A DNA stretch of 64,000 bases from Chitinophagales bacterium (GTDB lineage: Bacteria > Bacteroidota > Bacteroidia > Chitinophagales > Chitinophagaceae): positions 1 to 64,000 of the forward strand of contig JAATGQ010000074.1 of NCBI GenBank assembly GCA_015654595.1, given 5' to 3'. Both the position numbers and the translations under genes were made by a program. Positions 51,654 to 64,000 of this stretch are shown here, piece after piece (position 1 is the stretch's first letter; every line of letters begins with the position of its first letter). The notes under the pieces were generated by a model. That model was not told the DNA's origin, did not search any database, and saw only the letters and a list, made by a program, of their open reading frames with translations.

Positions 51654-52409
51654 ATGAGCAAACTAAAAGACAAAGTAGCAATCGTTACAGGCGCATCAAA
51701 AGGAATAGGAGCTTCTATCGCAAAACACTTCGCGGCAGAAGGAGCAAAAGTCGTTGTAAACTACGCATCAAGCAAAGCAGACGCAGAGAAAGTCGTCAGA
51801 TCCATAACGGAAAAAGGAGGAACAGCCATCGCAGTACAAGGCGACGTAGCAAAAAGCGCGGACGTGACCCGGCTGTTTGAAGAAACAAAAAAGGCTTACG
51901 GCAAACTCGATATCCTGGTCAACAATGCTGGTGTCTACGCATTCATACCAATCGAACAGGTGTCCGAAGACTTCTTTCACCAGCAATTCAACACCAATGT
52001 GCTGGGCTCTATCCTCTCCATCCAGGCAGCTTTAAACCTGTTTGGCGACAAAGGCGGCAACATCATCAACATCAGTTCCTGCGCCAGCAAAACCCCTATG
52101 TCAACAGCATCGGTTTATTCAGCAACAAAGGCGGCACTGGATGCCATTACGGTTGCCCTGTCAAAAGAACTGGGAGCAAAAAAGATCCGTATCAACTCCA
52201 TCCTTCCCGGCCCTGTAGAAACAGAAGGCACCCATACCGCGGGAATGATCGGCAGCGATATGGCAAAGCTCCTGGTCGCAAACACCCCGCTCGGCCGCAT
52301 GGGCCAGCCAGAAGACATTTCAAAGGCAGCCGTATTCCTTGCTTCCGACGAAGCATCCTGGGTAACAGGCGAACTGATCTCTGTCGGGGGCGGCATCTAC
52401 GGCTTCTAA
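51654..52409 (+). CDS. SDR family oxidoreductase
   Basis: 251 residues, classical SDR: TGASKGIG cofactor loop near residue 13, NNAGVYAF, catalytic Ser in NISSCAS, YSATK, and a PGPVETEGTH segment. NADPH preference is suggested by the NYASSKADAEK basic/polar loop. Closest types by sequence are 3-oxoacyl-ACP reductase-like and glucose-1-dehydrogenase-like enzymes, often under HxlR control and active on quinones or aldehydes. Single gene with a good terminator. Confidence 0.93.
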   Translation: MSKLKDKVAIVTGASKGIGASIAKHFAAEGAKVVVNYASSKADAEKVVRSITEKGGTAIAVQGDVAKSADVTRLFEETKKAYGKLDILVNNAGVYAFIPIEQVSEDFFHQQFNTNVLGSILSIQAALNLFGDKGGNIINISSCASKTPMSTASVYSATKAALDAITVALSKELGAKKIRINSILPGPVETEGTHTAGMIGSDMAKLLVANTPLGRMGQPEDISKAAVFLASDEASWVTGELISVGGGIYGF

Positions 52410-52795: not shown

Positions 52796-53911
52796 ATGAC
52801 CCGTTCGAAGTCTCTTCTCTTTCTGCTTCTCCTCCCCTTTCAATACCTCCAAGCCCAGCTGTCATGCCCAAAATGGGGCCCCTATGTAGTCACTACCCAG
52901 TTCAAAAATCAAAGCGGCATCCTGATGATGTCCGACGTCCTGTTCCCTTCGAAAGGAATAGCCCCCTATACCTACGCCAGCTCTATAAATTTCAAGATCG
53001 GTCACAGCGGCGGCTATTGTGGCATCCAGCAGGCAGGCTTCGAAGAAAAGCGAAAAGGCAATAACATATTTTCTATCTGGGACTTCCCAAACAAGATCCA
53101 GATCCTCGCCAGCTATAAAGACCCCGAAACCTTTGTCAGCGGCTTCGGCGGCGAAGGCACAGGCCTCCACTCCCACAGCGATTTCGGATGGAAAGCCGAT
53201 CATTGGTATACCAACATCGTCCGTGCCTGGGACAATGATGACTCTACTACCAGCGTCGGCTACTGGCTCTACGATCAATCAGAAAATACCTGGCGCCACT
53301 ACGTCACCTTTGTCGTCCCCGAAGCGCACGCTATGCTGAGCGACGACATCGGCAGCTTCCTTGAAAACTTTGCCGACGACAAAAAGACATCCAGAACCGG
53401 GGCCTACCGGGGTTACTGGTTCCTCAAAGCAGACGGCAGCTGGCATCATCCCGATTCCCTGGTCGCCAAGGCAGGTGCGGGCTCCTGGAAAGCAGAAAAG
53501 TACGGCCCTGACGGCGTCATTCTCACCTCCTGCGGATCAAAACCAGGCCCCGCCCAATATTCCTTCCCCGTTAGCATGCCCGACCGGCCCGCCTTTATAA
53601 AAACACCCGCCATCTTCGACGCAGGCGCCTACTACGATAAGACCAGCCACAAAATATGCGTCGACTGGACCATTACCCGTAACGATATGCCCCAGCTAAG
53701 CTATACCGTTACCCTCTATGACAACCCATCCTATAGCGGAACCCCGCTCGCCACAACCTCGGGAACAAACCCCGAAACAACCATGACCGCCCTCTCCGTC
53801 CAGGGCATCGAACTCCAAAAACAAAGCTATTATATAACCGTCCAGGTAAAAGACATCTTCGGCCAGTCATCCGAACTCAAAAAAATAATCCTCCAGGACC
53901 TCAAACCATAG
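52796..53911 (+). CDS. DUF3472 domain-containing secreted protein
   Basis: 371 residues from MTRSKSLLFLLLL, with signal peptide ending LQAQ. The DUF3472 pattern is visible: NIFSIWDFPNKIQ, GGEGTGLHSHSDFGWKADH, then GYWLYDQSENTW and GAYRGYWFLKADGSWH. Members are secreted and of unknown biochemistry, some near carbohydrate-active genes. The C-terminal 100 residues (from about 275) form a fibronectin-like domain. No operon partner; next gene starts 358 bases on. Confidence 0.82.
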   Translation: MTRSKSLLFLLLLPFQYLQAQLSCPKWGPYVVTTQFKNQSGILMMSDVLFPSKGIAPYTYASSINFKIGHSGGYCGIQQAGFEEKRKGNNIFSIWDFPNKIQILASYKDPETFVSGFGGEGTGLHSHSDFGWKADHWYTNIVRAWDNDDSTTSVGYWLYDQSENTWRHYVTFVVPEAHAMLSDDIGSFLENFADDKKTSRTGAYRGYWFLKADGSWHHPDSLVAKAGAGSWKAEKYGPDGVILTSCGSKPGPAQYSFPVSMPDRPAFIKTPAIFDAGAYYDKTSHKICVDWTITRNDMPQLSYTVTLYDNPSYSGTPLATTSGTNPETTMTALSVQGIELQKQSYYITVQVKDIFGQSSELKKIILQDLKP

Positions 53912-54098: not shown

Positions 54099-54106
54099 TA
54101 TATTTG
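54099..54106 (+). promoter_or_regulatory. -7 box ahead of the peptide cluster
   Basis: TATATTTG matches TAnnTTTG; no TTG at 19-21 bases upstream. Transcription near 54112 would put the ATG of the 28-codon ORF about 12 bases in. Confidence 0.5.
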
Positions 54107-54269: not shown

Positions 54270-55679
54270 ATGCCTTTCAAAATCGGCTATCCGTCGCCGG
54301 TATCGGATACAATAAACCACTGCTTTATGCCTTTATCCTCAGTCAATTCCCTTAGCGCAAGGAACACGCCATTATTTAAATATGGCATACCAACCCCCAA
54401 CAAGCTCATCAATGCTCTATCGCTTGTTATTATCGCATTCGTCATCTACCTGCCCGTCTTTCATCATACCTTTTTAACGATGTGGGACGACCAATGGGTT
54501 GTCGTCAACCGATATACCACAACAGGCATAACGCCCGAAAACCTGTGGAATGTGCTTACCGAATACTACCACGGCCAGTACGCACCCATCAATGAATATC
54601 TCTACATTACACTGCACGCCATCTTTGGCTACAATGCTACGGCTTTTCATATAGCCAGCCTGCTCATTCACTGTAGTAATATCGTTCTTGTTTATACGCT
54701 GCTGTTGAGGCTGCTCAGATTAAGCAATAAATTTCAAGAGGTCTCCATAAACAGGATCGCATTTTTTACAGCGCTCCTCTTTACGATCCACCCATTCCTC
54801 GTCGAAGCCGTATCCTGGCTCTCTGCATCGAAAAATATCATCTACGCCACCTTCTACCTGATCGCACTCCATTATTATATATCCTATCTGCAAACACAAA
54901 AATGGAAGTTCTATCTGGCCGCTATCCTATTCTTTATTATCTCCTACGGCGGCAAAGAACAAGCAGTGACACTACCCGTCTGCCTCCTCCTGATGGATTA
55001 CAGCCTGGCAAGAAAATTCAACCGAAAACTCTGGCTTGAAAAATTGCCTTTCTTTGTTCTTGCCCTCTTCTTTGGATATATCTCCATGGACTCCCAGGCA
55101 GCCAATGGGGAAGGCATGCTGGTCGGCGGCCGCTACTACCCCCTTACTCAGCGCATCCCATTGGCTTGCTATACGGTATCGGAATATCTCACCAAATGCC
55201 TTATTCCTATAAAACTATCCTACCTGTATCCCTTCCCCAACCAGATCGGGGAACCACTTGAAACAAGATTCTGGATATATCCTCTGGCAGCCGCACTGAT
55301 CATCGCCGCCTTCTGGAAAGTATTCCGGCCTCGTTGGATGTTCTTCGGTATCGCATTCTTCCTCATTCATATCCTGCTTGTCTCCAACATTCTCTCACTC
55401 TCCCGCTTCGCCATGGTTGCCGATCGATACGTATATCTGGCATCCGTTGGCATTTTTTTCACCCTTGCCTTCCTCTTCGACAAATGGCTGACAGAAAAAC
55501 CCGCCGCACGGCCCTTTGCCTTTCTTCTGGCTGGCATCTATGTACTCTATCTCGGTGTATATACCAATCAGCGCTGTAAAGTCTGGCATGATACAGACAG
55601 CCTGAAGTACGAGTTGAGACAAGTAATAAAAGGGCGGGACGACTATCCGGAAATCCAAAAACAAATACAAATGCAATGA
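54270..55679 (+). CDS. GT-C fold glycosyltransferase, TMTC/PMT-like
   Basis: 469 residues from MPFKIGYPSP (54327 is another possible Met). About ten membrane helices. The first periplasmic loop carries TMWDDQWVVVNRYTT, the acidic pair expected of GT-C enzymes, and HPFLVEAVSWLSASKNIIYA matches the TMTC/DUF1736-type HPxxxEAVxW signature. No TPR tail follows. Such enzymes move a sugar from a polyprenyl-phosphate donor to protein or lipid outside the inner membrane. First gene of the cluster; the peptide precursor gene follows after 112 bases with a small hairpin (55715-55730). Confidence 0.78.
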   Translation: MPFKIGYPSPVSDTINHCFMPLSSVNSLSARNTPLFKYGIPTPNKLINALSLVIIAFVIYLPVFHHTFLTMWDDQWVVVNRYTTTGITPENLWNVLTEYYHGQYAPINEYLYITLHAIFGYNATAFHIASLLIHCSNIVLVYTLLLRLLRLSNKFQEVSINRIAFFTALLFTIHPFLVEAVSWLSASKNIIYATFYLIALHYYISYLQTQKWKFYLAAILFFIISYGGKEQAVTLPVCLLLMDYSLARKFNRKLWLEKLPFFVLALFFGYISMDSQAANGEGMLVGGRYYPLTQRIPLACYTVSEYLTKCLIPIKLSYLYPFPNQIGEPLETRFWIYPLAAALIIAAFWKVFRPRWMFFGIAFFLIHILLVSNILSLSRFAMVADRYVYLASVGIFFTLAFLFDKWLTEKPAARPFAFLLAGIYVLYLGVYTNQRCKVWHDTDSLKYELRQVIKGRDDYPEIQKQIQMQ

Positions 55680-55714
55680 CAACCTGCATCCGGTTTCTCC
55701 GCCAATTCTGGTAA

Positions 55715-55730
55715 CTCTCCGGAAGGAGAG
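55715..55730 (+). other. small hairpin ahead of the peptide gene
   Basis: CTCTCC-GGAA-GGAGAG, a six-base stem capped by a GGAA tetraloop, 61 bases before the ATG at 55792. Might stabilise the 5' end of a peptide mRNA. Confidence 0.4.
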
Positions 55731-55791
55731 ATATACATGCCAAAACAGTAAAAAATCAAACATGCATTTAACGCACATTAAACATTAACTT

Positions 55792-56232
55792 ATGACAAAA
55801 AAGATCATCAGAATCTCAGGCATCGCTGCGATCGTATTCGCACTAGTTGCAAATCTTCAATACGCCCTCTTTAATTACGGCCTTAAAAATCATTCCATCG
55901 GTCTCGCCGTTATGGCCCAGACAAGCACCTCCAGCGGCGGCGGAACCACGACTGGCGGTGGAACCACCGACGATTCGGATCCCTGGGTAACGACCATGCC
56001 TTCCGATATAGACGACAGCGAAGACGATAGCGGCGACTACTCTAATGACACAAGCGTCGGTCTCTCCGGAACAGGATATCAATTGGTCCAGGTAAGATGT
56101 ATAAAAGTGGGCTTCGTTATCCAGCTTCCTATCAAGAATAGCCAATTGCAAATCGCGCTGGGCTATAGAATGAAATGTAAAAAAATGGCAGAAGTTACCT
56201 GCGATGGCACAAAAGTAACCCCCTGTTCTTAA
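55792..56232 (+). CDS. secreted peptide precursor with NVEALA-like leader
   Basis: 146 residues. The leader MTKKIIRISGIAAIVFALVA is followed by NLQYALFNYGL and HSIGLAVMAQTSTSSGG, the layout of NVEALA-type leaders (basic start, hydrophobic core, conserved Asn, Leu/Ala-rich end), although the literal NVEALA is replaced by GLAVMAQ. Then comes a Gly/Thr/Ser linker (45-62), an acidic stretch (63-86) and a C-terminal domain with four cysteines, C103, C129, C137 and C145, enough for two disulfides. Next to a 6-bladed propeller lipoprotein gene as in known NVEALA contexts. The family assignment is an inference from leader shape and neighbourhood. Confidence 0.65.
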   Translation: MTKKIIRISGIAAIVFALVANLQYALFNYGLKNHSIGLAVMAQTSTSSGGGTTTGGGTTDDSDPWVTTMPSDIDDSEDDSGDYSNDTSVGLSGTGYQLVQVRCIKVGFVIQLPIKNSQLQIALGYRMKCKKMAEVTCDGTKVTPCS

Positions 56233-56252
56233 CCTGATTTTAAACAAAAAAA

Positions 56253-56280
56253 TAAATCGGAGTATACTCACTCCGATTTA
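56253..56280 (+). terminator. hairpin between peptide gene and lipoprotein gene
   Basis: TAAATCGGAGT pairs with ACTCCGATTTA, 11-base stem, six-base loop, 20 bases after the peptide stop. The T tract is poor, so partial termination or mRNA 3' protection is likely, leaving more peptide mRNA than downstream mRNA. Confidence 0.6.
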
Positions 56281-56294
56281 CCTTCCCTATTATA

Positions 56295-57494
56295 ATGAAA
56301 CCGATCAACCTCCTTATCCCGTTCCTGCTCCTCCTCCTCATGACCGCCTGCGCAAGAAGAAAGTATAATTATACCATTGTCGATCAATTACCAAAAGATT
56401 CGTCCTTCGAACAAATAGACCTGAAAAATGCAACAGGCGAAGACGTTGAATTGTCCAGCCTCGTAAAAAAGATCAGCTATATAAAATTGGAAACCAAAGA
56501 AAATTGCCTGATCGGCAATATCGATAAGATACAGTTATTCAACGATAAGATCTATATCTGTGATGAAACAAAGTCCATAGCAGTTTTTGTCTTTGACAAA
56601 CAGGGACATTTCCTTTTCAAACTCGCAAGAGGCATTGGCGCACCCGGAGAATTCACGAATCTGTCCGATTTTGTCGTCAACGAACGCGACTCCTGCATCT
56701 ATATCCTCAGCAGAAACCAGAACATGTTGCTCAAATACAGCCCTACAGGAAAATTCATCCATAACATTCACATACCGCCCTATATCGATAACTTTCAGGC
56801 ACTCAACGATGGATCATTTCTGCTGTACCGTGAATTCTGCTCGATAAAAGGCGACCCTCTTAGTAATAGCAGGCTGATGGTACTACAGCCAGATGGGAGA
56901 ATAAAGATCGGCTGGTTTACAAAAGCCATCAACACAAACATAGCCGTCTCCATTCCCGACCCCATCGTCAGCTCTATAGCCGGAACCTACTCTATTTCAC
57001 GCCCCTTCGAAAACACGATCTATTCCTTCTCACCCGGTAACCAAACCACCAAAATAAAGTACTACATAGATTTTGGCAACAACGATCTCATACAACTGGC
57101 CTCCCTGAAAAGCTTCCCCGAACTCAACCAGTTTCAACAAGCCCATTCCTTCCTGGCCGGTAATGTCATCGACAAATCCAACTACCTGTACTTTATGTTC
57201 TTTGACCGTCAACAGGCAAAATTCTATTTTAAAAATAGAAAAAACGCTGTACCTCGGGCCACCGTAATAAAACGATTGATCAACGACATTGACTTTATCC
57301 CTAACTATCCATTTTTATACGGAACGGACAGCAGCCTTGTCTCAATACTACCCTCTTACCAGCTAAAAGAACTTTATGATGCTAGTAATAAACAACAGGA
57401 CGGCAGCAAAAAAGGCCTCGATACGCTATATAAATACGGCGCCATCACACAAGAGACTGATAATCCATTAATCGCTGTATATACTCTCCAATAA
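56295..57494 (+). CDS. 6-bladed beta-propeller lipoprotein (BF3164-like)
   Basis: 399 residues. Lipoprotein signal with C19 in LLMTACARRK. The body starts EQIDLKNATGEDVELSSLV and YIKLETKENCLIGNIDKI, then the propeller blade repeats FNDKIYICDETKSIAVFVFD, GHFLFKLARGIGAPGEFTNL and GKFIHNIHIPPYIDNF, the typical text of BF3164-like proteins. They lie beside NVEALA peptide genes in Bacteroidota. Likely outer-membrane anchored, perhaps binding the peptide. Confidence 0.88.
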   Translation: MKPINLLIPFLLLLLMTACARRKYNYTIVDQLPKDSSFEQIDLKNATGEDVELSSLVKKISYIKLETKENCLIGNIDKIQLFNDKIYICDETKSIAVFVFDKQGHFLFKLARGIGAPGEFTNLSDFVVNERDSCIYILSRNQNMLLKYSPTGKFIHNIHIPPYIDNFQALNDGSFLLYREFCSIKGDPLSNSRLMVLQPDGRIKIGWFTKAINTNIAVSIPDPIVSSIAGTYSISRPFENTIYSFSPGNQTTKIKYYIDFGNNDLIQLASLKSFPELNQFQQAHSFLAGNVIDKSNYLYFMFFDRQQAKFYFKNRKNAVPRATVIKRLINDIDFIPNYPFLYGTDSSLVSILPSYQLKELYDASNKQQDGSKKGLDTLYKYGAITQETDNPLIAVYTLQ

Positions 57495-57503
57495 GCCATT
57501 CCC

Positions 57504-58172
57504 ATGCCCAACAAAAAAGCGCCATTCTTATTGTTTCTTTTGTCTGTCTATGCATTGTCTTTTTCTTCCTGTAAAGCGATCCTTATACGACACGTTTTCA
57601 ACGGATACCACCAATACTCCGGCCAGGAATTCCCAAACCTGCAAGTAGCAAAGGAAGATGGGACACATACTGAACTTTATGCCTATAAAGGCAAGGCTGT
57701 CTACCTCAATATATGGGCAACCTGGTGTAAACCTTGTATCGAAGACTTTACCTATATACAGAAAATGAATACGCTCATCACACCGTACAAAGACATCGTC
57801 ATAATCAATTTGTGCGTAAATGGTCCCAAAGAGCAATGGCTGAAAATGATCCATGAACACCCGGAGACAGGCTTGCAACTATTTTTGACAGACACCTCGA
57901 AATATGCTTTCCTTTTAAAACGCTTCAAAATTGAAGACAAAGGATTCCCCTCCTTCTTTATCCTTGACAGCAGCGACACCATCCAGGGCTCCAATATCGG
58001 CCCCGACCAGGGCATCCTGACCACATACTGTCTCGTTCAGGCACAAAAAAAGATCGACACCAGGACCGCCGCTTATAATTTCCTGAGACTGTCAAAAGAA
58101 ATGAAGCAAAAAGACAATGCCGAAACAAAGGAATTTGTCGACTTTCTAACGACCGTCTCTGCAAAACAATAA
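57504..58172 (+). CDS. TlpA-like thioredoxin-fold lipoprotein
   Basis: 222 residues. N-terminal LSVYALSFSSCKAILI has a lipobox-like cysteine at C23. The thioredoxin domain (about 42-190) has the active site WATWCKPC, C75 and C78, and a GFPSFFILD cis-proline loop. Periplasmic disulfide reductase or oxidase. It sits between the propeller lipoprotein (9 bases) and the DUF1573 fusion (17 bases), in one operon, and may act on the cysteines of the upstream peptide. Confidence 0.88.
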   Translation: MPNKKAPFLLFLLSVYALSFSSCKAILIRHVFNGYHQYSGQEFPNLQVAKEDGTHTELYAYKGKAVYLNIWATWCKPCIEDFTYIQKMNTLITPYKDIVIINLCVNGPKEQWLKMIHEHPETGLQLFLTDTSKYAFLLKRFKIEDKGFPSFFILDSSDTIQGSNIGPDQGILTTYCLVQAQKKIDTRTAAYNFLRLSKEMKQKDNAETKEFVDFLTTVSAKQ

Positions 58173-58189
58173 CCGACAATATTTCGACA

Positions 58190-59137
58190 ATGAAGCCTTT
58201 TTCCCTTATCCTCCTTTTACTCTCTCTGTCAGGCAGTATCCTGCTGGGTATCCTCTATATCAAACAACAAAAACTCATCCCTAAAGAAAAACAACAGGCG
58301 TATATCGATCATCTGCTACAAACCCATGTCTGCATGCAATCGCTCTACTCACCCCTGATCCTGAAACCTGGTACAAATGTAAAAGATGAATACAACCGAT
58401 CGTTTTCCCTGGATTCCATTATTACCAGCACTCCAGGCGAAAAACTGGTCTTTCGATTCACCGAAAACAACTGTATCGATTGTATAAAAGCGGAACTCCT
58501 GCATTTGGAAAAAATAGCGCCCGTAATCGGAAAAGACAATATCATCTTACTGGCGTCCTACACCGGAACCAATGATCTCAAATTATTCCGGAAAGCCTAT
58601 AACCCGCCTTTCTCCATCTATAATACCCCACTTGAATCTCTCGCCGGCAACCAGCTGGAAGACGCCAACCTCCCCTATTATTTCGTCCTGAACAAAGATC
58701 TTTCCCCACATCTTCTTTTTATCCCGGAAAAAACGCTTGCCGAACTGACAGAACAGTATTACAAAATGATGACAGACTACGTCACCCATAAAGCGCTCTT
58801 TAGCGACCAAAAACTCGCGGCCAACGAAACAACGATCTTCTTCCCCGACACCACCCACAACTTGAACCAACTCAAACCCGGGCGGCACATTGAAACAAAA
58901 TTCCCATTTAGAAATACAGGTAACGCTCCTCTCTTGATCAAGCTTGTAAAACCCGACTGTGGATGCACCATTGCAGAGTACCCCCGATACGCAATAAAAC
59001 CCGGCGACAGCGCCTCCATCGACATCACCTATACGACCGGCGAAACGGGGTACTTCTCCCGGCAAATCAAGGTATACAGTAATTCTATTAAAAGCCCTGC
59101 AGTGTTAAAGCTATATGGAAAGGTTTATGACAACTGA
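58190..59137 (+). CDS. thioredoxin-like plus DUF1573 fusion protein
   Basis: 315 residues. An N-terminal membrane anchor (about 5-25), a thioredoxin-like region (about 60-210) with a CIDC motif at 95-98 (FTENNCIDCIKAEL) and LPYYFVLNKD, and a C-terminal DUF1573 Ig-like domain (about 220-315) with the signature VKPDCGCTIAEYP and the IDITYTTGETG strand. The protein faces the periplasm. The pairing of a CxxC unit with DUF1573 in one chain suggests a redox partner that is docked by its Ig-like end. Its last 23 bases overlap the next gene. Confidence 0.82.
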   Translation: MKPFSLILLLLSLSGSILLGILYIKQQKLIPKEKQQAYIDHLLQTHVCMQSLYSPLILKPGTNVKDEYNRSFSLDSIITSTPGEKLVFRFTENNCIDCIKAELLHLEKIAPVIGKDNIILLASYTGTNDLKLFRKAYNPPFSIYNTPLESLAGNQLEDANLPYYFVLNKDLSPHLLFIPEKTLAELTEQYYKMMTDYVTHKALFSDQKLAANETTIFFPDTTHNLNQLKPGRHIETKFPFRNTGNAPLLIKLVKPDCGCTIAEYPRYAIKPGDSASIDITYTTGETGYFSRQIKVYSNSIKSPAVLKLYGKVYDN

Positions 59138-60635
59138 ACTCATCCAGCCCGTTTCCATCTCCATGCATATCTTTCACAGGATCTGCCTGATCATTGCGCT
59201 ATTCCTCTACCTGACAACAGCCGTCAATAGCAGCGGCTATTACCATCCCGACGAACACTACCAGATCATTGAATTCGCCGAGCTCAAACTCGGAAAAGCC
59301 ATCCCCCAGGATCTGCCCTGGGAATATAACGCCAGGATAAGATCAGCCATACAACCTTTTATCTGCTACAACATCATCGCCCTGGCTAACAGCATTGGAA
59401 TACAAGACCCCTATGACCAGGCCATTATCTTGCGTAGTCTCACAGCACTGCTGGCGCTTATATGCATACAGTCATTCGTCCGGTCCACCCTGTCCCTCGT
59501 AGAACCAGCCCTCCAAAAAAGCTATATTCTTCTGGCCTATTTTTTATGGTTTCTTCCCTTTATCAACGTCCGCTTCTCTTCGGAAACCTGGTCCGGCTTC
59601 TCCTTTCTCGCAGCCCTAGCCATCCTGCTGCGCCAGCCCCCCCAAAAAACCATCTCCTTCCTGGCCACAGGCGCATTACTTGGATTCAGTTTCCTCTGCC
59701 GCTTTCAATCGGCCATCCTGACCCTTACTCTATTTATATGGCTCCTTGTCATCCAAAAGGAAAAAGCTAAAAATCTGGCCTATATGCTTTCCTCCTTTTT
59801 GGCAGTCCTTGCGCTGGGACTACTGGCTGACAAATGGCTATATGGGCAATACACTTTTACAAGCTGGAACTACTTTAGCACAAATATTTTAAAAGATGTA
59901 TCCAGTCACTTTGGGAAAGCCCCCTGGTATTTCTACCTCCAGGAAATAGTCCTGCAACCTCTTTTTCCCCTCGGTATACTATTATCCTGCGCAATCTTGA
60001 TATTGGCCGTAAAAAAAACCGATGGCCTGATCACCTGGCTAATCGCGCTATTCATACTTGTTCACTCTGTTATCCCCCACAAGGAAGATCGTTTTCTCTT
60101 CCCCCTGGCTAATCTCGCCCCCCTCATATTAGTGCTGGCAGCCCAGGAAATAACCCGATATCGCTTTAACAAAGGCATTCGCCTTTCGGGTATTTTCCTG
60201 CTGACCGTCTTTTCCCTGATCAATCTTACCGCCCTCTGCATCATGTCCGCAAGGAGCGCCGGAACAGGCAGAATGGCAATCACACAATACATACACCAGC
60301 ACTATAGGAACAAACCGGTTAACCTGATTACAGGACCTATTGCCAATCCCTATAACCCCTGGACAATCTTTAAAGACAACTTTTATAAAGACACTCAACT
60401 CACCGAAAAAGCAATGAATGATCCCGCCGAAATATCCACCCTCATAGACTCTGCAAAAGTCAACCTGGTTGTACTCAGCAATACAACGGCCTATAGCCAG
60501 GAATTCAAGGCCCGGCTCCACCAACTTGGTTTCCACAAAAAGATCCAAAGCATTCCTGCCTGGATAGTACATACCGACAATCTTTATTATCCGGACGACC
60601 CTGCCAGTATGCTTGTACTATACGAAAGGGACTAA
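59115..60635 (+). CDS. GT22-like mannosyltransferase (Alg9/PIG-B type)
   Basis: 506 residues, about ten or more membrane helices. The first loop has YYHPDEHYQIIEFAELKLG with the acidic pair expected of GT-C enzymes, and VHSVIPHKEDRFLFPLANL contains the HKEDRF motif of GT22 lipid-linked or GPI mannosyltransferases. The sugar is unproven. Start 59115 overlaps the upstream gene; Met at 59127 and 59163 are alternatives. Second GT-C enzyme in the cluster, so a glycan is probably built on a membrane lipid or on the exported peptide. Confidence 0.82.
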   Translation: MERFMTTELIQPVSISMHIFHRICLIIALFLYLTTAVNSSGYYHPDEHYQIIEFAELKLGKAIPQDLPWEYNARIRSAIQPFICYNIIALANSIGIQDPYDQAIILRSLTALLALICIQSFVRSTLSLVEPALQKSYILLAYFLWFLPFINVRFSSETWSGFSFLAALAILLRQPPQKTISFLATGALLGFSFLCRFQSAILTLTLFIWLLVIQKEKAKNLAYMLSSFLAVLALGLLADKWLYGQYTFTSWNYFSTNILKDVSSHFGKAPWYFYLQEIVLQPLFPLGILLSCAILILAVKKTDGLITWLIALFILVHSVIPHKEDRFLFPLANLAPLILVLAAQEITRYRFNKGIRLSGIFLLTVFSLINLTALCIMSARSAGTGRMAITQYIHQHYRNKPVNLITGPIANPYNPWTIFKDNFYKDTQLTEKAMNDPAEISTLIDSAKVNLVVLSNTTAYSQEFKARLHQLGFHKKIQSIPAWIVHTDNLYYPDDPASMLVLYERD

Positions 60636-60651
60636 ATCAAAATAGACGTTT

Positions 60652-61764
60652 ATGACCCATACAAAAAAACATTTTCGCCTTATCCCCTTCCTTATATGTG
60701 TCTCACATATAGGAATATCCTGCCATTCGGATCTGAAAAAGACAACACTGCCGCTCGTTCTGGCAGAAAAGGAATATAGCTCTTCCACCATCGTCGAAAC
60801 AGCCAGGGCGGTAAAACGTCCCTTCCTGTATCTGCTTTCCGCCAACGGTAAGATCCGGTCGCTCTCGGAAGAATTGATCAACGCACCCGCCAACGGCAGA
60901 GTCGTCATCTCCAATGCCATAACCGGATCACACTTTGACAAAGGAGCCCTTATAGCACAACTGGAAACGATCACCGCCGAACTCAAACTGGAAAGAGCCC
61001 AGCTAAGCAGATTCAATGCTGAAAAGGAATACGAAAGCCAACTCCTTGGCTATCGCACACTGATAGAAAGCAAGGACTCCTCAAAAGCAGCCGCGATAAA
61101 AATGAAACTACGCATCAGCTCAGGTCTTTCATCCGCAGAACAGGATATAAAAGAAGCCAATTATGAGCTTTCCCGCTGCTATATCAAAGCCCCCTTCCCC
61201 TGCCGCTTATCCGATGTAAAGATTTTGGGACAACAGGATATAAAAGAAGGGCAGGAATTGTTCAGGATCTATGACTATAGCAATCTCGTATTGGAAATGA
61301 AGATCCTGGAGTCGGATATAAGCCTCTGCCGGAAGGGTATGCAAGCTGCCATCTCACCTATCGGTAATCCTGGAAAAAAATATGTCGCCTGCGTCTATGA
61401 CATAAACCCCTATGTAGACGACAATGGAATGGTGACCATCCGGTTAAAGATAATAACCGGCGGCCAGGAACTATTCCCCGGCATGAATTGCACCGCGGAA
61501 ATAAAGATCCCCAAAGAAAGTTCTGTCGTTGTCCCCAGGGAAGCCATCGTGTTGAAAAATGACAAACCAGTCGTGTTTGTACTCAACAAAGGATTGGCAG
61601 AATGGCATTATGTTGTTCTGGGAAAAGAAAATAGCCAGGAAGTAGAAATCGTCAACGGTCTCCACGGCGGAGAAAAAGTCATCACTTCCAACAACCTGCA
61701 ACTATCCCACGAAGCTCCTGTAAAGGAAAAACAGACCGACACAACACAGACTCAGTCCCTGTAA
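60652..61764 (+). CDS. HlyD-type RND periplasmic adaptor lipoprotein
   Basis: 370 residues. Lipobox at C24 (HIGISCHS). A barrel-sandwich half-motif APANGRVVISNAITGSHFDK, a helical hairpin (about 105-165, ELKLERAQLSRFNAEKEYE) and the second half CYIKAPFPCRLSDVKI, then beta-barrel and membrane-proximal domains ending LHGGEKVITSNNLQLSHEAP. It links the RND pump to an outer membrane channel. Encoded 22 bases before the pump gene. Confidence 0.93.
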   Translation: MTHTKKHFRLIPFLICVSHIGISCHSDLKKTTLPLVLAEKEYSSSTIVETARAVKRPFLYLLSANGKIRSLSEELINAPANGRVVISNAITGSHFDKGALIAQLETITAELKLERAQLSRFNAEKEYESQLLGYRTLIESKDSSKAAAIKMKLRISSGLSSAEQDIKEANYELSRCYIKAPFPCRLSDVKILGQQDIKEGQELFRIYDYSNLVLEMKILESDISLCRKGMQAAISPIGNPGKKYVACVYDINPYVDDNGMVTIRLKIITGGQELFPGMNCTAEIKIPKESSVVVPREAIVLKNDKPVVFVLNKGLAEWHYVVLGKENSQEVEIVNGLHGGEKVITSNNLQLSHEAPVKEKQTDTTQTQSL

Positions 61765-61786
61765 ACCCAGCAAATCAATCAAGCCG

Positions 61787-64000
61787 ATGATCCGGTATCT
61801 TATCCATCGCCCCGTCGCCGTTCTTATATCCTTTCTGGCCGTCCTGATCGCCGGCATGGCCCTTCTGCAAAAGATCCCCGTTTCCCTGCTGCCTTCTATA
61901 GACGTCCCCAGAATCGTCATCGTCGTCAACTATCCCAATACACCCGCTGCCCAGATCCAACAAAACGTCATCCGCCCTATCCAGGAAGCATTCGCCGGCG
62001 TCAGCCATCTCGCCAACATCGAAAGCGAAACCTCCGATCACACCGGGTCTGTTTACCTGACCTTTGACTATGGAACGAGAATGGACCTGGCCTATATCGA
62101 AGTCAATGAAAAAATAGATCTCCTTTCTAATTCTTTTCCACGGGATATGCCAAGACCACAGGTCATGCGGATCAACACATCCGATATCCCCGTCCTGCAT
62201 ATCCAGGTTATACCCTCCCCCGGAACAAACATGTCCGAACTTTCAACCCTGGCTGAAAAATACCTCCGACGCCGGATAGAACAGCTTGACGGTGTTTCCC
62301 TCGTCGATATGAACGGCCTTCAGCACTCCATCGTATCGGTTAACCCAGACAAACAAGCACTGGCAGCGCTCGGCGAAGATGAATCCATCCTATCGCAAAC
62401 CATCCGAAGCGTGAATCAGGACCTGGGAAGAATGACCGTACAGGAAGGTCACTACCGCTATTTCGTAACAGTAAGCAACACCGTCGGATCTATCAATGAA
62501 CTCTCAGCCCTACCCGTCAGACTAAGATCCGGCTCGATAGTCCCTCTAAAACAATTGGCCGTCATCAGCTCCCAACCTGAAACAATCTCAGGCTGCCACT
62601 TATTCAATGGAAAACAAGGGATCGTCATCACTGTCGGAAAAAGATCGGATAGCAAAATGAATGTACTCGTCCCCAAACTAAAATCACTCGTCAACCAGTT
62701 TACAAAACATTACCCTGATCTATCCTTTTCCATCACACAGGATCAAACCTTTCTTCTTGACGCTGGTATAAGCAACCTCTACCAGGACATCATTATCGGA
62801 GGCATCCTGACGATAAGCCTGCTATTCTTGTTTCTAGGAAACTGGGCCTCGCCAACATTGATGAGCATCAGCATCCCGGTATCCCTGGTGCTGACTTTCC
62901 TGTTTTTCTATTCCTTTCACCTTTCATTCAATATTATCTCCCTCTCCGGCCTCGCCCTCGGTATAGGCATGCTGATCGACAACTCGATCATTGTCGTTGA
63001 CAATATCACAAAAAAATACAACGAAAATATACCATTGACCGAAAGCTGTATAACCGGAACCAACGAAGTCGTCGTCCCCGTCATCAGCCAGGTGCTTACC
63101 ACCGTAGCCGTCTACGCTCCACTCGTGCTGCTCAATGGCATGGCCAGCTCTCTCGTAGCCGACCAAAGCATCGCCCTGACAATCTCCCTTGCCGTCTCCC
63201 TTCTCGTCGCATTTATCCTCTGCCCCATCTTGTACAACCTGTTCATGAAGGGATCCCCACAAAAAAAGAAGACAGACACCATCTTCTATATATGGATCTC
63301 GAAAGGCTACCACAAGATGGTTTACCACCTGCTAAAACACAAAGGACTCTATTTCTTTTTTACCATCGCCCTGATGCCCATCGGCTTTCTCCTCGTCAGA
63401 CAACTCCCCGTCTCAGCCCTACCCACTATCGAAAAAAGGGATGGACTGATCCTTCTCGACTGGAATACCGCCGTCTATATCAAAGAAAACCTACAACGAA
63501 CAAACCGCCTGCTGCAAGTACTTCAGCCCTTCTGCGAAACAACGGAAGCAGAAATAGGCCTACAGCAATTTCTGCAGCAACAGGAACAAAACAGCACACA
63601 AAAACTGACGCTGTATTATTCTTGTAAAACGGAATCACTCAAAAAAGCCGCGGACGAATCGATTCAAACCTTCCTTACACAAAATTACTCCAACGCTTTC
63701 CTCCGGATCATAGACGCCCCCAATGCCTTTGTCCAGCTCTTCAACGACAATACACCCTGGATTGAAGCCCGCCTGCGTCCCGTCAATGGCGATTGGAGCA
63801 ACATAGACCTCCCCCGGCTTCTCTCGCAACTCCACCAGCCCTGGACGAAAGGCTTAGGGATGATCCGACAACGCAACATGCGCATTACCCTCGACTATCA
63901 AAAAATGGCTCTGTACGGAGTCTCCAGAGCAGCCCTGGAAGATAAACTCCAACAACTCTTTGGCATATATACAATAACAGAAATGAAACACTTTGGAGAC
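61787..64000 (+). CDS. RND family efflux permease, partial at the window edge
   Basis: 738 codons are open to the end of the window; family proteins are about 1000-1040 residues, so roughly 280 are missing. Start MIRYLIHRPVAVLISFLAVL, then a periplasmic porter region and ISLSGLALGIGMLIDNSIIV as TM4. The proton-relay Asp-Asp of AcrB reads Asp-Asn here. Drives export by proton motive force, together with the adaptor just upstream. Given the cluster, the peptide or a glycolipid could be the cargo. Confidence 0.92.
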   Translation, partial: MIRYLIHRPVAVLISFLAVLIAGMALLQKIPVSLLPSIDVPRIVIVVNYPNTPAAQIQQNVIRPIQEAFAGVSHLANIESETSDHTGSVYLTFDYGTRMDLAYIEVNEKIDLLSNSFPRDMPRPQVMRINTSDIPVLHIQVIPSPGTNMSELSTLAEKYLRRRIEQLDGVSLVDMNGLQHSIVSVNPDKQALAALGEDESILSQTIRSVNQDLGRMTVQEGHYRYFVTVSNTVGSINELSALPVRLRSGSIVPLKQLAVISSQPETISGCHLFNGKQGIVITVGKRSDSKMNVLVPKLKSLVNQFTKHYPDLSFSITQDQTFLLDAGISNLYQDIIIGGILTISLLFLFLGNWASPTLMSISIPVSLVLTFLFFYSFHLSFNIISLSGLALGIGMLIDNSIIVVDNITKKYNENIPLTESCITGTNEVVVPVISQVLTTVAVYAPLVLLNGMASSLVADQSIALTISLAVSLLVAFILCPILYNLFMKGSPQKKKTDTIFYIWISKGYHKMVYHLLKHKGLYFFFTIALMPIGFLLVRQLPVSALPTIEKRDGLILLDWNTAVYIKENLQRTNRLLQVLQPFCETTEAEIGLQQFLQQQEQNSTQKLTLYYSCKTESLKKAADESIQTFLTQNYSNAFLRIIDAPNAFVQLFNDNTPWIEARLRPVNGDWSNIDLPRLLSQLHQPWTKGLGMIRQRNMRITLDYQKMALYGVSRAALEDKLQQLFGIYTITEMKHFGD

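Follow-up and report, generated by a model that had tools for sequence, protein, structure and literature searches.

A Bacteroidota locus that may make, modify and export a cysteine-rich secreted peptide alongside a beta-propeller lipoprotein

The window, a stretch of 64,000 nucleotides from a Chitinophagales bacterium (phylum Bacteroidota), ends inside an operon that runs on past it along a contig of 71,581 bases. Open reading frames and Pfam and TIGR profiles of the window bore out, at its noted position on the plus strand, every gene named in an earlier note on this DNA. The first encodes a short PMT/TMTC-like GT-C glycosyltransferase without TPR repeats (54270..55679; PF13231, 29.3 bits against a cut-off of 26.1), followed by the 146-residue precursor of a Cys-rich secreted peptide (55792..56232) and a six-bladed beta-propeller lipoprotein (DUF5128; 56295..57494; PF17170, 142.9 bits, cut-off 22.9). 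Next come a TlpA/Redoxin-type thioredoxin protein with a WCKPC motif (57504..58172; PF08534, 45.5 bits), a membrane-anchored thioredoxin (CIDC) fused to DUF1573 (58190..59137; PF07610, 90.3 bits) and a GT22 (ALG9-like) GT-C glycosyltransferase with an HPDEH motif (59115..60635; PF03901, 152.6 bits). An RND periplasmic adaptor of the HlyD type (60652..61764; TIGR01730, 134.1 bits, cut-off 94.9) and a 1,006-residue RND permease (61787..64000, ending at contig position 64807; PF00873, 500.1 bits over its full length) complete the window. Beyond it lie an outer-membrane efflux channel (contig 64804-66252; PF02321, 161.2 bits) and a second RND permease (contig 66249-69374; PF00873, 298.6 bits), such that adaptor, permease and channel stand together as in a tripartite RND system. 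The short same-strand gaps described earlier are right except that one is an overlap: the spacings downstream of the propeller gene are 9, 17, -23 (the overlap), 16 and 22 bases, and the peptide gene is flanked by larger gaps, with 112 bases before it and 62 after. A promoter-like TAnnTTTG box, which we take to be the Bacteroidota -7 consensus, matches at 54099..54106 on the plus strand as the sole copy on that strand between 53501 and 57000, but it is weak evidence because the whole window holds 17 copies on the plus strand and 25 on the minus strand. None of the eight locus proteins matched a PADLOC anti-phage defence model.

The peptide precursor falls into three parts, all on the plus strand. 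Its leader (55792..55917) has a hydrophobic stretch and, at residues 21-25, a conserved NLQYA; its distal A42/Q43 step resembles the ALA with which the NVEALA motif ends and is the probable site of cleavage. A Ser/Thr-Gly tract follows at residues 44-59, TSTSSGGGTTTGGGTT (55921..55968), in which 16 of 16 residues are S, T or G; it is the Ser/Thr linker that had been given as residues 45-62, and we propose that it is an O-glycan acceptor. The C-terminal part (56098..56229) holds the four cysteines that had been reported, C103, C129, C137 and C145. A structural model of the precursor was poor (pLDDT 52.7) and was used solely for a helix predicted at residues 3-28, for disorder (residues 34-99, pLDDT < 50) and for two low-confidence strands in the C-terminal part. 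In the gap between the peptide and propeller genes, the RNA is predicted to fold into a hairpin with an 11-bp stem and a 6-base loop (56253..56280, plus strand; z = -5.74, none of 200 shuffles as good), with no U-tract after it. Twenty such gaps were examined, one of which (L156) was left out of folding for its length, and a hairpin was found in all 19 that were folded.

The peptide had been called NVEALA-like. This holds for its architecture and for its adjacency to a propeller gene, which here spans 55792-57494 with the peptide gene and recurs at the NVEALA matches of genome G358; we take such adjacency to be an NVEALA trait. It does not hold for the family itself: the PF14055 profile found no match in the window peptide or in its own genome, and PF14055 was absent from the families matched by 28 related peptides at an E value of 0.5. 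The same search did obtain a match in the control genome, Bacteroides ihuae, and across 247 genomes of the phylum it matched in one genome only. Thus, the likeness to NVEALA is one of architecture and neighborhood only.

The peptide is single copy in its own genome, as judged with a sequence profile, and it is 43% identical over its whole length to its counterpart in Chitinophaga sp. YR627, a genome that keeps the full gene set at 32 to 50% identity. A single-sequence search of 39 relatives gave one clear match, the peptide itself, and the useful match in a second genome was weak (E = 0.0068), so that synteny was needed to find relatives. A search for the PMT family alone was swamped by long PMT-type proteins (mostly 550 to 780 residues), which we presume to carry TPR repeats; we therefore split the matches by reading-frame length and used the long ones as controls. 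The scan with the short type gave 33 loci, several of them from one genome (L169 with L171, L151 with L173) or from near species, and a propeller gene was present in 31 and a small Cys-rich secreted peptide in 30; the loci without them are truncated at the end of a contig. Three further short-PMT loci, found outside the 33, had neither. A peptide was called where a frame of 60 to 200 residues with at least two cysteines and a hydrophobic start lay no more than 900 bases upstream of the propeller gene and on its strand; counts made by this rule are uncorrected for the chance occurrence of such small frames before propellers in general. The peptides of L140 and L141, which lie between the propeller and PMT genes, were added by hand, and the rule's own pick in L141 was judged false. 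A propeller lay within 1.5 kb in 27 of 44 short-PMT windows, a number that includes duplicates of the same loci, versus 0 of 76 long-type control loci. Two loci, L152 and L184, have the full set except TlpA, and the stretch covered in them contains no gene for the channel.

The co-occurrence search that the note had suggested thus links the GT-C genes with the peptide in many genera, and its claim that the genes form a group is upheld against clean controls. Chance neighbors in a gene-dense region might have explained synteny in one genome alone, but the set recurs at low protein identity and in rearranged order, which means that it is more than chance; we give that explanation almost no weight.

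The pump gave a second handle. Its adaptor belongs to a distinct subfamily, far from ordinary adaptors (E <= 1e-118 versus >= 2.5e-36), that was found at E <= 1e-60 in only 5 of 294 family genomes, the window's included. Searching with the adaptor alone yielded four further loci, none with a PMT gene, and each had a propeller gene and one to three Cys-rich secreted peptides; a propeller was present in none of 20 ordinary RND-adaptor loci, hand-chosen from the search listing. DUF1573 and/or a CxxC-thioredoxin gene was kept in three of the four, and on the redox side the fourth (L180) has only a distant relative of an unnamed family. Loci retaining pump and adaptor but stripped of peptide and redox genes, which the earlier note had named as the observation that would count against it, were therefore not what this search returned. 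No locus had both OMP-type and RND-type genes in a confident operon, in numbers too few to claim mutual exclusion. These results also bear on a reading in which the locus protects the envelope, with the PMT-like enzyme as an ArnT-type lipid A glycosyltransferase, the pump expelling antimicrobials and the peptide acting as a sensor or regulator. Against it, this adaptor subfamily is distant from ordinary ones and tied to the peptide, and the Ser/Thr/Gly tracts would be left with no role; we consider it improbable.

Since the pump occurs without PMT and PMT without the pump, the single island that had been proposed stands as to the genes belonging together but is better described as a core with optional modules. 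That core is the peptide and the propeller, usually with thioredoxin/DUF1573. No other two genes stay together as constantly across the loci as those for peptide and propeller, tandem loci such as L160 and L167 always have a separate peptide for each propeller, thioredoxin-type genes are common, and 18 of the 19 thioredoxin(-DUF1573) relatives examined have CxxC. All of this except the last count could also be expected if the peptide were never exported and served instead as the small subunit, rich in disulfides, of an enzyme or receptor, with the propeller as the large subunit and the sugars and pump serving the complex or its product. The model for such an arrangement would be methylamine dehydrogenase, which has a small cross-linked subunit, a propeller subunit and the redox helpers MauD and MauE. 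Yet the peptides vary too much for a catalytic subunit (71 to 172 residues and 2 to 11 cysteines, with one invariant column when the window peptide is aligned with 27 others), and the Pfam scan of the window locus revealed no gene for maturation of a redox cofactor. We regard this as unlikely, if the strongest of the alternatives.

The enzymes themselves look like membrane glycosyltransferases. The PMT_2-type protein has an acidic pair, D71 D72, in the first outer loop that is invariant in 28 sequences, and a fold search assigned it a GT-C fold, although PMT sequence profiles against the PDB gave no match. It is not of the TMTC type with a C-terminal TPR part, having 469 residues in which the Pfam scan found solely PMT_2. 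The HPDEH motif of the GT22 enzyme is invariant in three relatives, whose profile matches human ALG9 at 3e-7. GT22 was rejected as a locus finder: most of the matches belonged to a different subfamily with unrelated neighbors. Of the 33 short-PMT loci, 22 have an additional gene of the sugar-enzyme or GtrA type, the labels GT2, GtrA and signal peptidase having been verified with Pfam on individual examples only, and two of the four pump loci without PMT have other sugar enzymes (Wzy_C-type in L181; GT7, Gb3-type and GT4 in L180). A multi-pass gene in several loci we take to be PIGV, a label that serves as a handle only, with no Pfam match at the thresholds used.

Of the 39 peptides at PMT loci, 18 have a Ser/Thr/Gly tract, versus 0 of 80 background stretches and 0 of 10 peptides where no glycosyltransferase was seen, this last group comprising L179 and L182, judged by profiles, and six NVEALA peptides of one genome, judged on 1.5-kb flanks alone. 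Four peptides, one from L180 and three from L181, were left out of this two-group comparison on account of the other sugar enzymes in their loci; they score 9, 10, 6 and 12 of 16. The leader motif occurs in 25 of the 39 peptides from which its pattern was itself drawn up. The tract is missing from 21 of the 39, as would be expected if the targets of the GT-C enzymes were the propeller lipoprotein or other surface proteins while the peptide stayed free of sugar, and a general Bacteroidota O-glycosylation with a D-S/T-hydrophobic motif is described in one report (PMC12871550). Against this, the window peptide has a single copy of that motif and 9 of the 39 peptides contain it, outside the tract, and strong-tract PMT loci are found in separate genera. 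Sugar on the peptide seems to us the better account, and its absence improbable, ranking between the two preceding alternatives.

Our preferred reading, to which we assign a probability of roughly 0.55, is that the genes of this locus together produce and process a single secreted peptide, disulfide-bonded and probably O-glycosylated, which is partnered by the propeller lipoprotein and, in this operon, served by a dedicated RND exporter. The precursor would be made probably in excess of the downstream proteins, because a strong hairpin is predicted after its stop codon. It would cross the inner membrane by the Sec route, directed by its hydrophobic leader, and be cut at the distal Ala site; signal peptidase-like genes occur in some relatives' loci. 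In the periplasm the TlpA-type protein and the thioredoxin-DUF1573 fusion, both with CxxC, may pair or isomerize its cysteines, while the short PMT-like enzyme would transfer a sugar from polyprenyl-phosphate to Ser/Thr of the disordered tract. The GT22 enzyme may extend that sugar; fold, motifs and linkage are what was observed for this sugar step. A GT2 enzyme could supply the donor: it is encoded in the locus in many relatives, and a homologue (30% identity) lies elsewhere in the window genome. Their co-conservation points to the propeller lipoprotein as the peptide's receptor, holder or immunity protein, and to the adaptor, two permeases and channel as the exporter of the mature peptide, which would likely act outside the cell. 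Glycosylation, export and role are all inferred.

More tentatively, such loci may represent a phylum-wide, undescribed class of Bacteroidota ribosomal peptides, Cys-rich and glycosylated on Ser/Thr-Gly tracts in the periplasm by polyprenyl-dependent GT-C enzymes (or by other sugar enzymes where PMT is missing), a subset of them RND-exported, with the propeller as receptor or immunity protein and a probable action between cells. We found no open-access paper joining these parts and none naming NVEALA, and one naming BF3164; a lead on iron regulation (PMC10434189) held no relevant operon in its available part. If correct, this would add modified secreted peptides of a new family, made with the help of periplasmic GT-C glycosylation, to a phylum that matters in the gut, in soil and on plants; RND pumps would gain a peptide cargo, and a testable role would be at hand for peptide and propeller families that are so far no more than names.

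Among known systems, the NVEALA and propeller families (PF14055; PF15869/PF17170) are known as families only. The locus shares with NVEALA a small secreted Cys-bearing peptide, a long leader that has an Ala site at its end and an adjoining propeller lipoprotein gene, and some NVEALA copies have DUF1573 and signal peptidase-like sequences nearby; the window peptide is longer and has the tract, and no GT-C genes or pump were seen within 1.5 kb of the six NVEALA matches that were read. MdtABC-like RND systems have two permeases and, like this one, an adaptor and an outer-membrane channel, whereas the pump here has a distinct adaptor subfamily and is linked to a secreted peptide. Glycocins are glycosylated, disulfide-bonded Gram-positive bacteriocins that use thioredoxin-type helpers, a cytoplasmic glycosyltransferase and an ABC peptidase exporter. 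A ribosomal peptide, disulfides, Ser/Thr sugar and thioredoxin-type helpers would be common to both; here the enzymes are GT-C membrane proteins and the exporter is RND-type, and the window genes scanned include no C39 peptidase/ABC exporter or cytoplasmic glycosyltransferase. With PMT/TMTC O-mannosyltransferases and ALG9/ALG12-type GT22 enzymes the locus shares Pfam families, the DD and HPDEH motifs and the GT-C fold, but its PMT has no TPR part and is linked to a peptide-propeller locus. The general Bacteroidota O-glycosylation system adds sugars to Ser/Thr of non-cytoplasmic proteins, and its locus is described as one of outer-glycan glycosyltransferases; it recognizes the D-S/T-hydrophobic motif, in contrast to the Ser/Thr-Gly tracts proposed here (PMC12871550).

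All eight genes named in the earlier note, which had proposed a peptide maturation and export island, were confirmed with Pfam and NCBIfam: a short PMT_2-type GT-C glycosyltransferase without TPR repeats (PMT; window positions 54270 to 55679), a peptide, a propeller lipoprotein (DUF5128), a TlpA protein, a thioredoxin-DUF1573 protein, GT22, an adaptor, and RND permease 1 (RND1), in that order and with intergenic gaps of 112, 62, 9, 17, −23, 16, and 22 bases. The operon runs on past the window into the 3′ part of the 71,581-base contig, of which the window covers the first 64,000 bases (the genome is in 265 contigs, with a listed completeness of 87%). RND1 ends at contig position 64807, and it is followed by an outer-membrane efflux channel (64804 to 66252) and a second permease, RND2 (66249 to 69374). 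The pump is therefore complete as a tripartite system and includes two permeases. Upstream of the operon lies a DUF3472 protein gene (window 52802 to 53911; PF11958, 167.8 bits), relatives of which also occur near the short PMT of genome G101 (locus L058).

Every part of this set was present in Chitinophaga sp. YR627, with identities to the window proteins of 50% (PMT), 43% (peptide), 42% (propeller), 32% (TlpA), 39% (thioredoxin-DUF1573), 35% (GT22), 42% (adaptor), 49% (RND1), 48% (channel), and 34% (RND2); GT22 and RND2 are on the opposite strand there. Chitinophaga cymbidii and genome G780 carry the PMT, peptide, propeller, thioredoxin, GT22, adaptor, and both permeases; TlpA was not found at either locus, nor was a channel gene within the stretch examined. 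At L022/L061 (G039:C319), a decayed fragment of a GT22 gene, carrying an in-frame TGA, lies close to a propeller gene and to an SDR gene resembling that at window 51654 to 52409; it is possibly what remains of a related locus.

The pairing of the peptide with a PMT-type GT-C enzyme was borne out more widely. Scanning the named genomes that carry short PMTs yielded 36 loci, 33 short-PMT and 3 long-PMT, the former from Chitinophaga, Pedobacter, Niabella, Sphingobacterium, Mucilaginibacter, Algoriphagus, Lunatimonas, Rhodonellum, Flavivirga, Tannerella, Parabacteroides, and Bacteroides, besides bins. The propeller was present in 31/33 short-PMT loci (exceptions, L162 and L173) and the peptide in 30/33 (exceptions, L162, L173, and L148), each exception being interrupted by a contig end; the long-PMT loci had neither (0/3 for both). 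With flanks of 1.5 kb, 27 of 44 short-PMT windows held a propeller; over the same distance, propeller, thioredoxin-DUF1573, GT22, and adaptor genes were all absent from 76 long PMT-type control loci. Three short PMTs from other searches (L055, L058, and L186) are without peptide or propeller, and one further short-PMT locus (L183) is cut. G007, a genome of the window's genus, has a PMT 43% identical to that of the window and, after it, genes for a peptide of 99 amino acids with four cysteines, a TolB-like propeller lipoprotein, a small protein with CxxC, and a large protein of the outer membrane; GT22 and RND are absent from this locus.

Other features of these loci were also seen. The PMT-peptide-propeller unit is repeated in tandem in Parabacteroides massiliensis (L160), where several copies each of the PMT and propeller genes lie within 21 kb. 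In Niabella defluvii (CP079215; L144), the PMT, OMP, propeller, and other genes are each split into several reading frames, which we read as sequencing error or decay. A family of ~205 amino acids, T207, is encoded at L138 to L146 and L055 to L057, and at 9 of the 33 short-PMT loci from the scan above it adjoins the PMT; the one example scanned had no confident Pfam match, and 6 of 12 copies have CxxC. Signal peptidase I-like genes, Pfam checked for L165 only, lie in or near PMT-peptide-propeller loci (L165:6546-7226, L160, L166, and L150) and possibly encode a dedicated leader peptidase.

Membership in the adaptor subfamily (profile search, E ≤ 1e-60) extended to 5 of 294 family genomes, the weakest at 1e-118; the best ordinary adaptor scored 2.5e-36 with the adaptor profile in a 60-genome search. 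The four loci besides the window (L179 to L182) all have the order one to three Cys-rich secreted peptides, propeller, adaptor, RND1, channel, with a DUF1573 and/or CxxC-thioredoxin gene in three and RND2 upstream, facing away, in three; PMT and GT22 were found in none. In place of the redox gene, L180 encodes just a protein weakly related to an unnamed family. None of 20 ordinary adaptor loci (10.6 to 18 kb) contained a member of the propeller, thioredoxin-DUF1573, or GT-C families described here (propeller, 4/4 versus 0/20; Fisher P = 9e-5). The earlier proposal, against which pump loci lacking the peptide and redox genes would speak, thus withstood this comparison. L180 (8084 to 11984, G697) also encodes a LanC-like protein and three glycosyltransferases (GT7C, Gb3-type, and GT4) in place of PMT/GT22, and L181 (10473 to 12332, G688) has, between the thioredoxin and adaptor genes, a 619-amino-acid protein with weak matches to Wzy_C (O-antigen ligase type) and TPR.

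The window peptide has a hydrophobic N-terminal start, NLQYA at residues 21 to 25, an Ala42-Gln43 step, a Ser/Thr-Gly tract (residues 44 to 59), and cysteines at 103, 129, 137, and 145. The D-S/T-hydrophobic motif given for Bacteroidota O-glycosylation in the review PMC12871550 occurs in it once, outside the tract. CxxC is present in 18/19 thioredoxin relatives. All 19 peptide-propeller gaps folded contain a strong hairpin (z, −2.15 to −8.93; below −3 in 16), even though the gap sequences differ. The hairpin suggests a higher dose of peptide message.

From the gene content, conservation, motifs, fold, and hairpin observed here, we infer each biochemical step, the pump cargo, and a role outside the cell. 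The peptide would be produced in excess, exported through Sec, cut, and oxidized; its tract would be O-glycosylated by the PMT-like enzyme, with GT22 extending the sugar; and it would be held or recognized by the propeller lipoprotein and, in the window organism, pushed out by the dedicated RND pump.

We can name no known kind of system in which a ribosomal peptide glycosylated by GT-C enzymes is combined with a propeller lipoprotein and RND export. The component families are already known by name, and the combined system, with its proposed function, is without description in the literature searched, mostly open papers, in which combinations of glycosylation, peptide, propeller, RND, and thioredoxin led to no account of such a locus. 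BF3164 is named in one paper of that literature, and no mention of NVEALA was found in it (mostly open papers, few subscription ones). The window peptide had no family match in Pfam or NCBIfam, and because 0/28 related peptides match Pfam NVEALA at a threshold E of 0.5, we do not assign it to that family. The earlier description "NVEALA-like" nevertheless stands for its plan: like the window peptide, the NVEALA peptides of genome G358 have a hydrophobic start, a spacer, an Ala-ending motif, and a Cys-bearing end, and their genes adjoin propeller-type genes.
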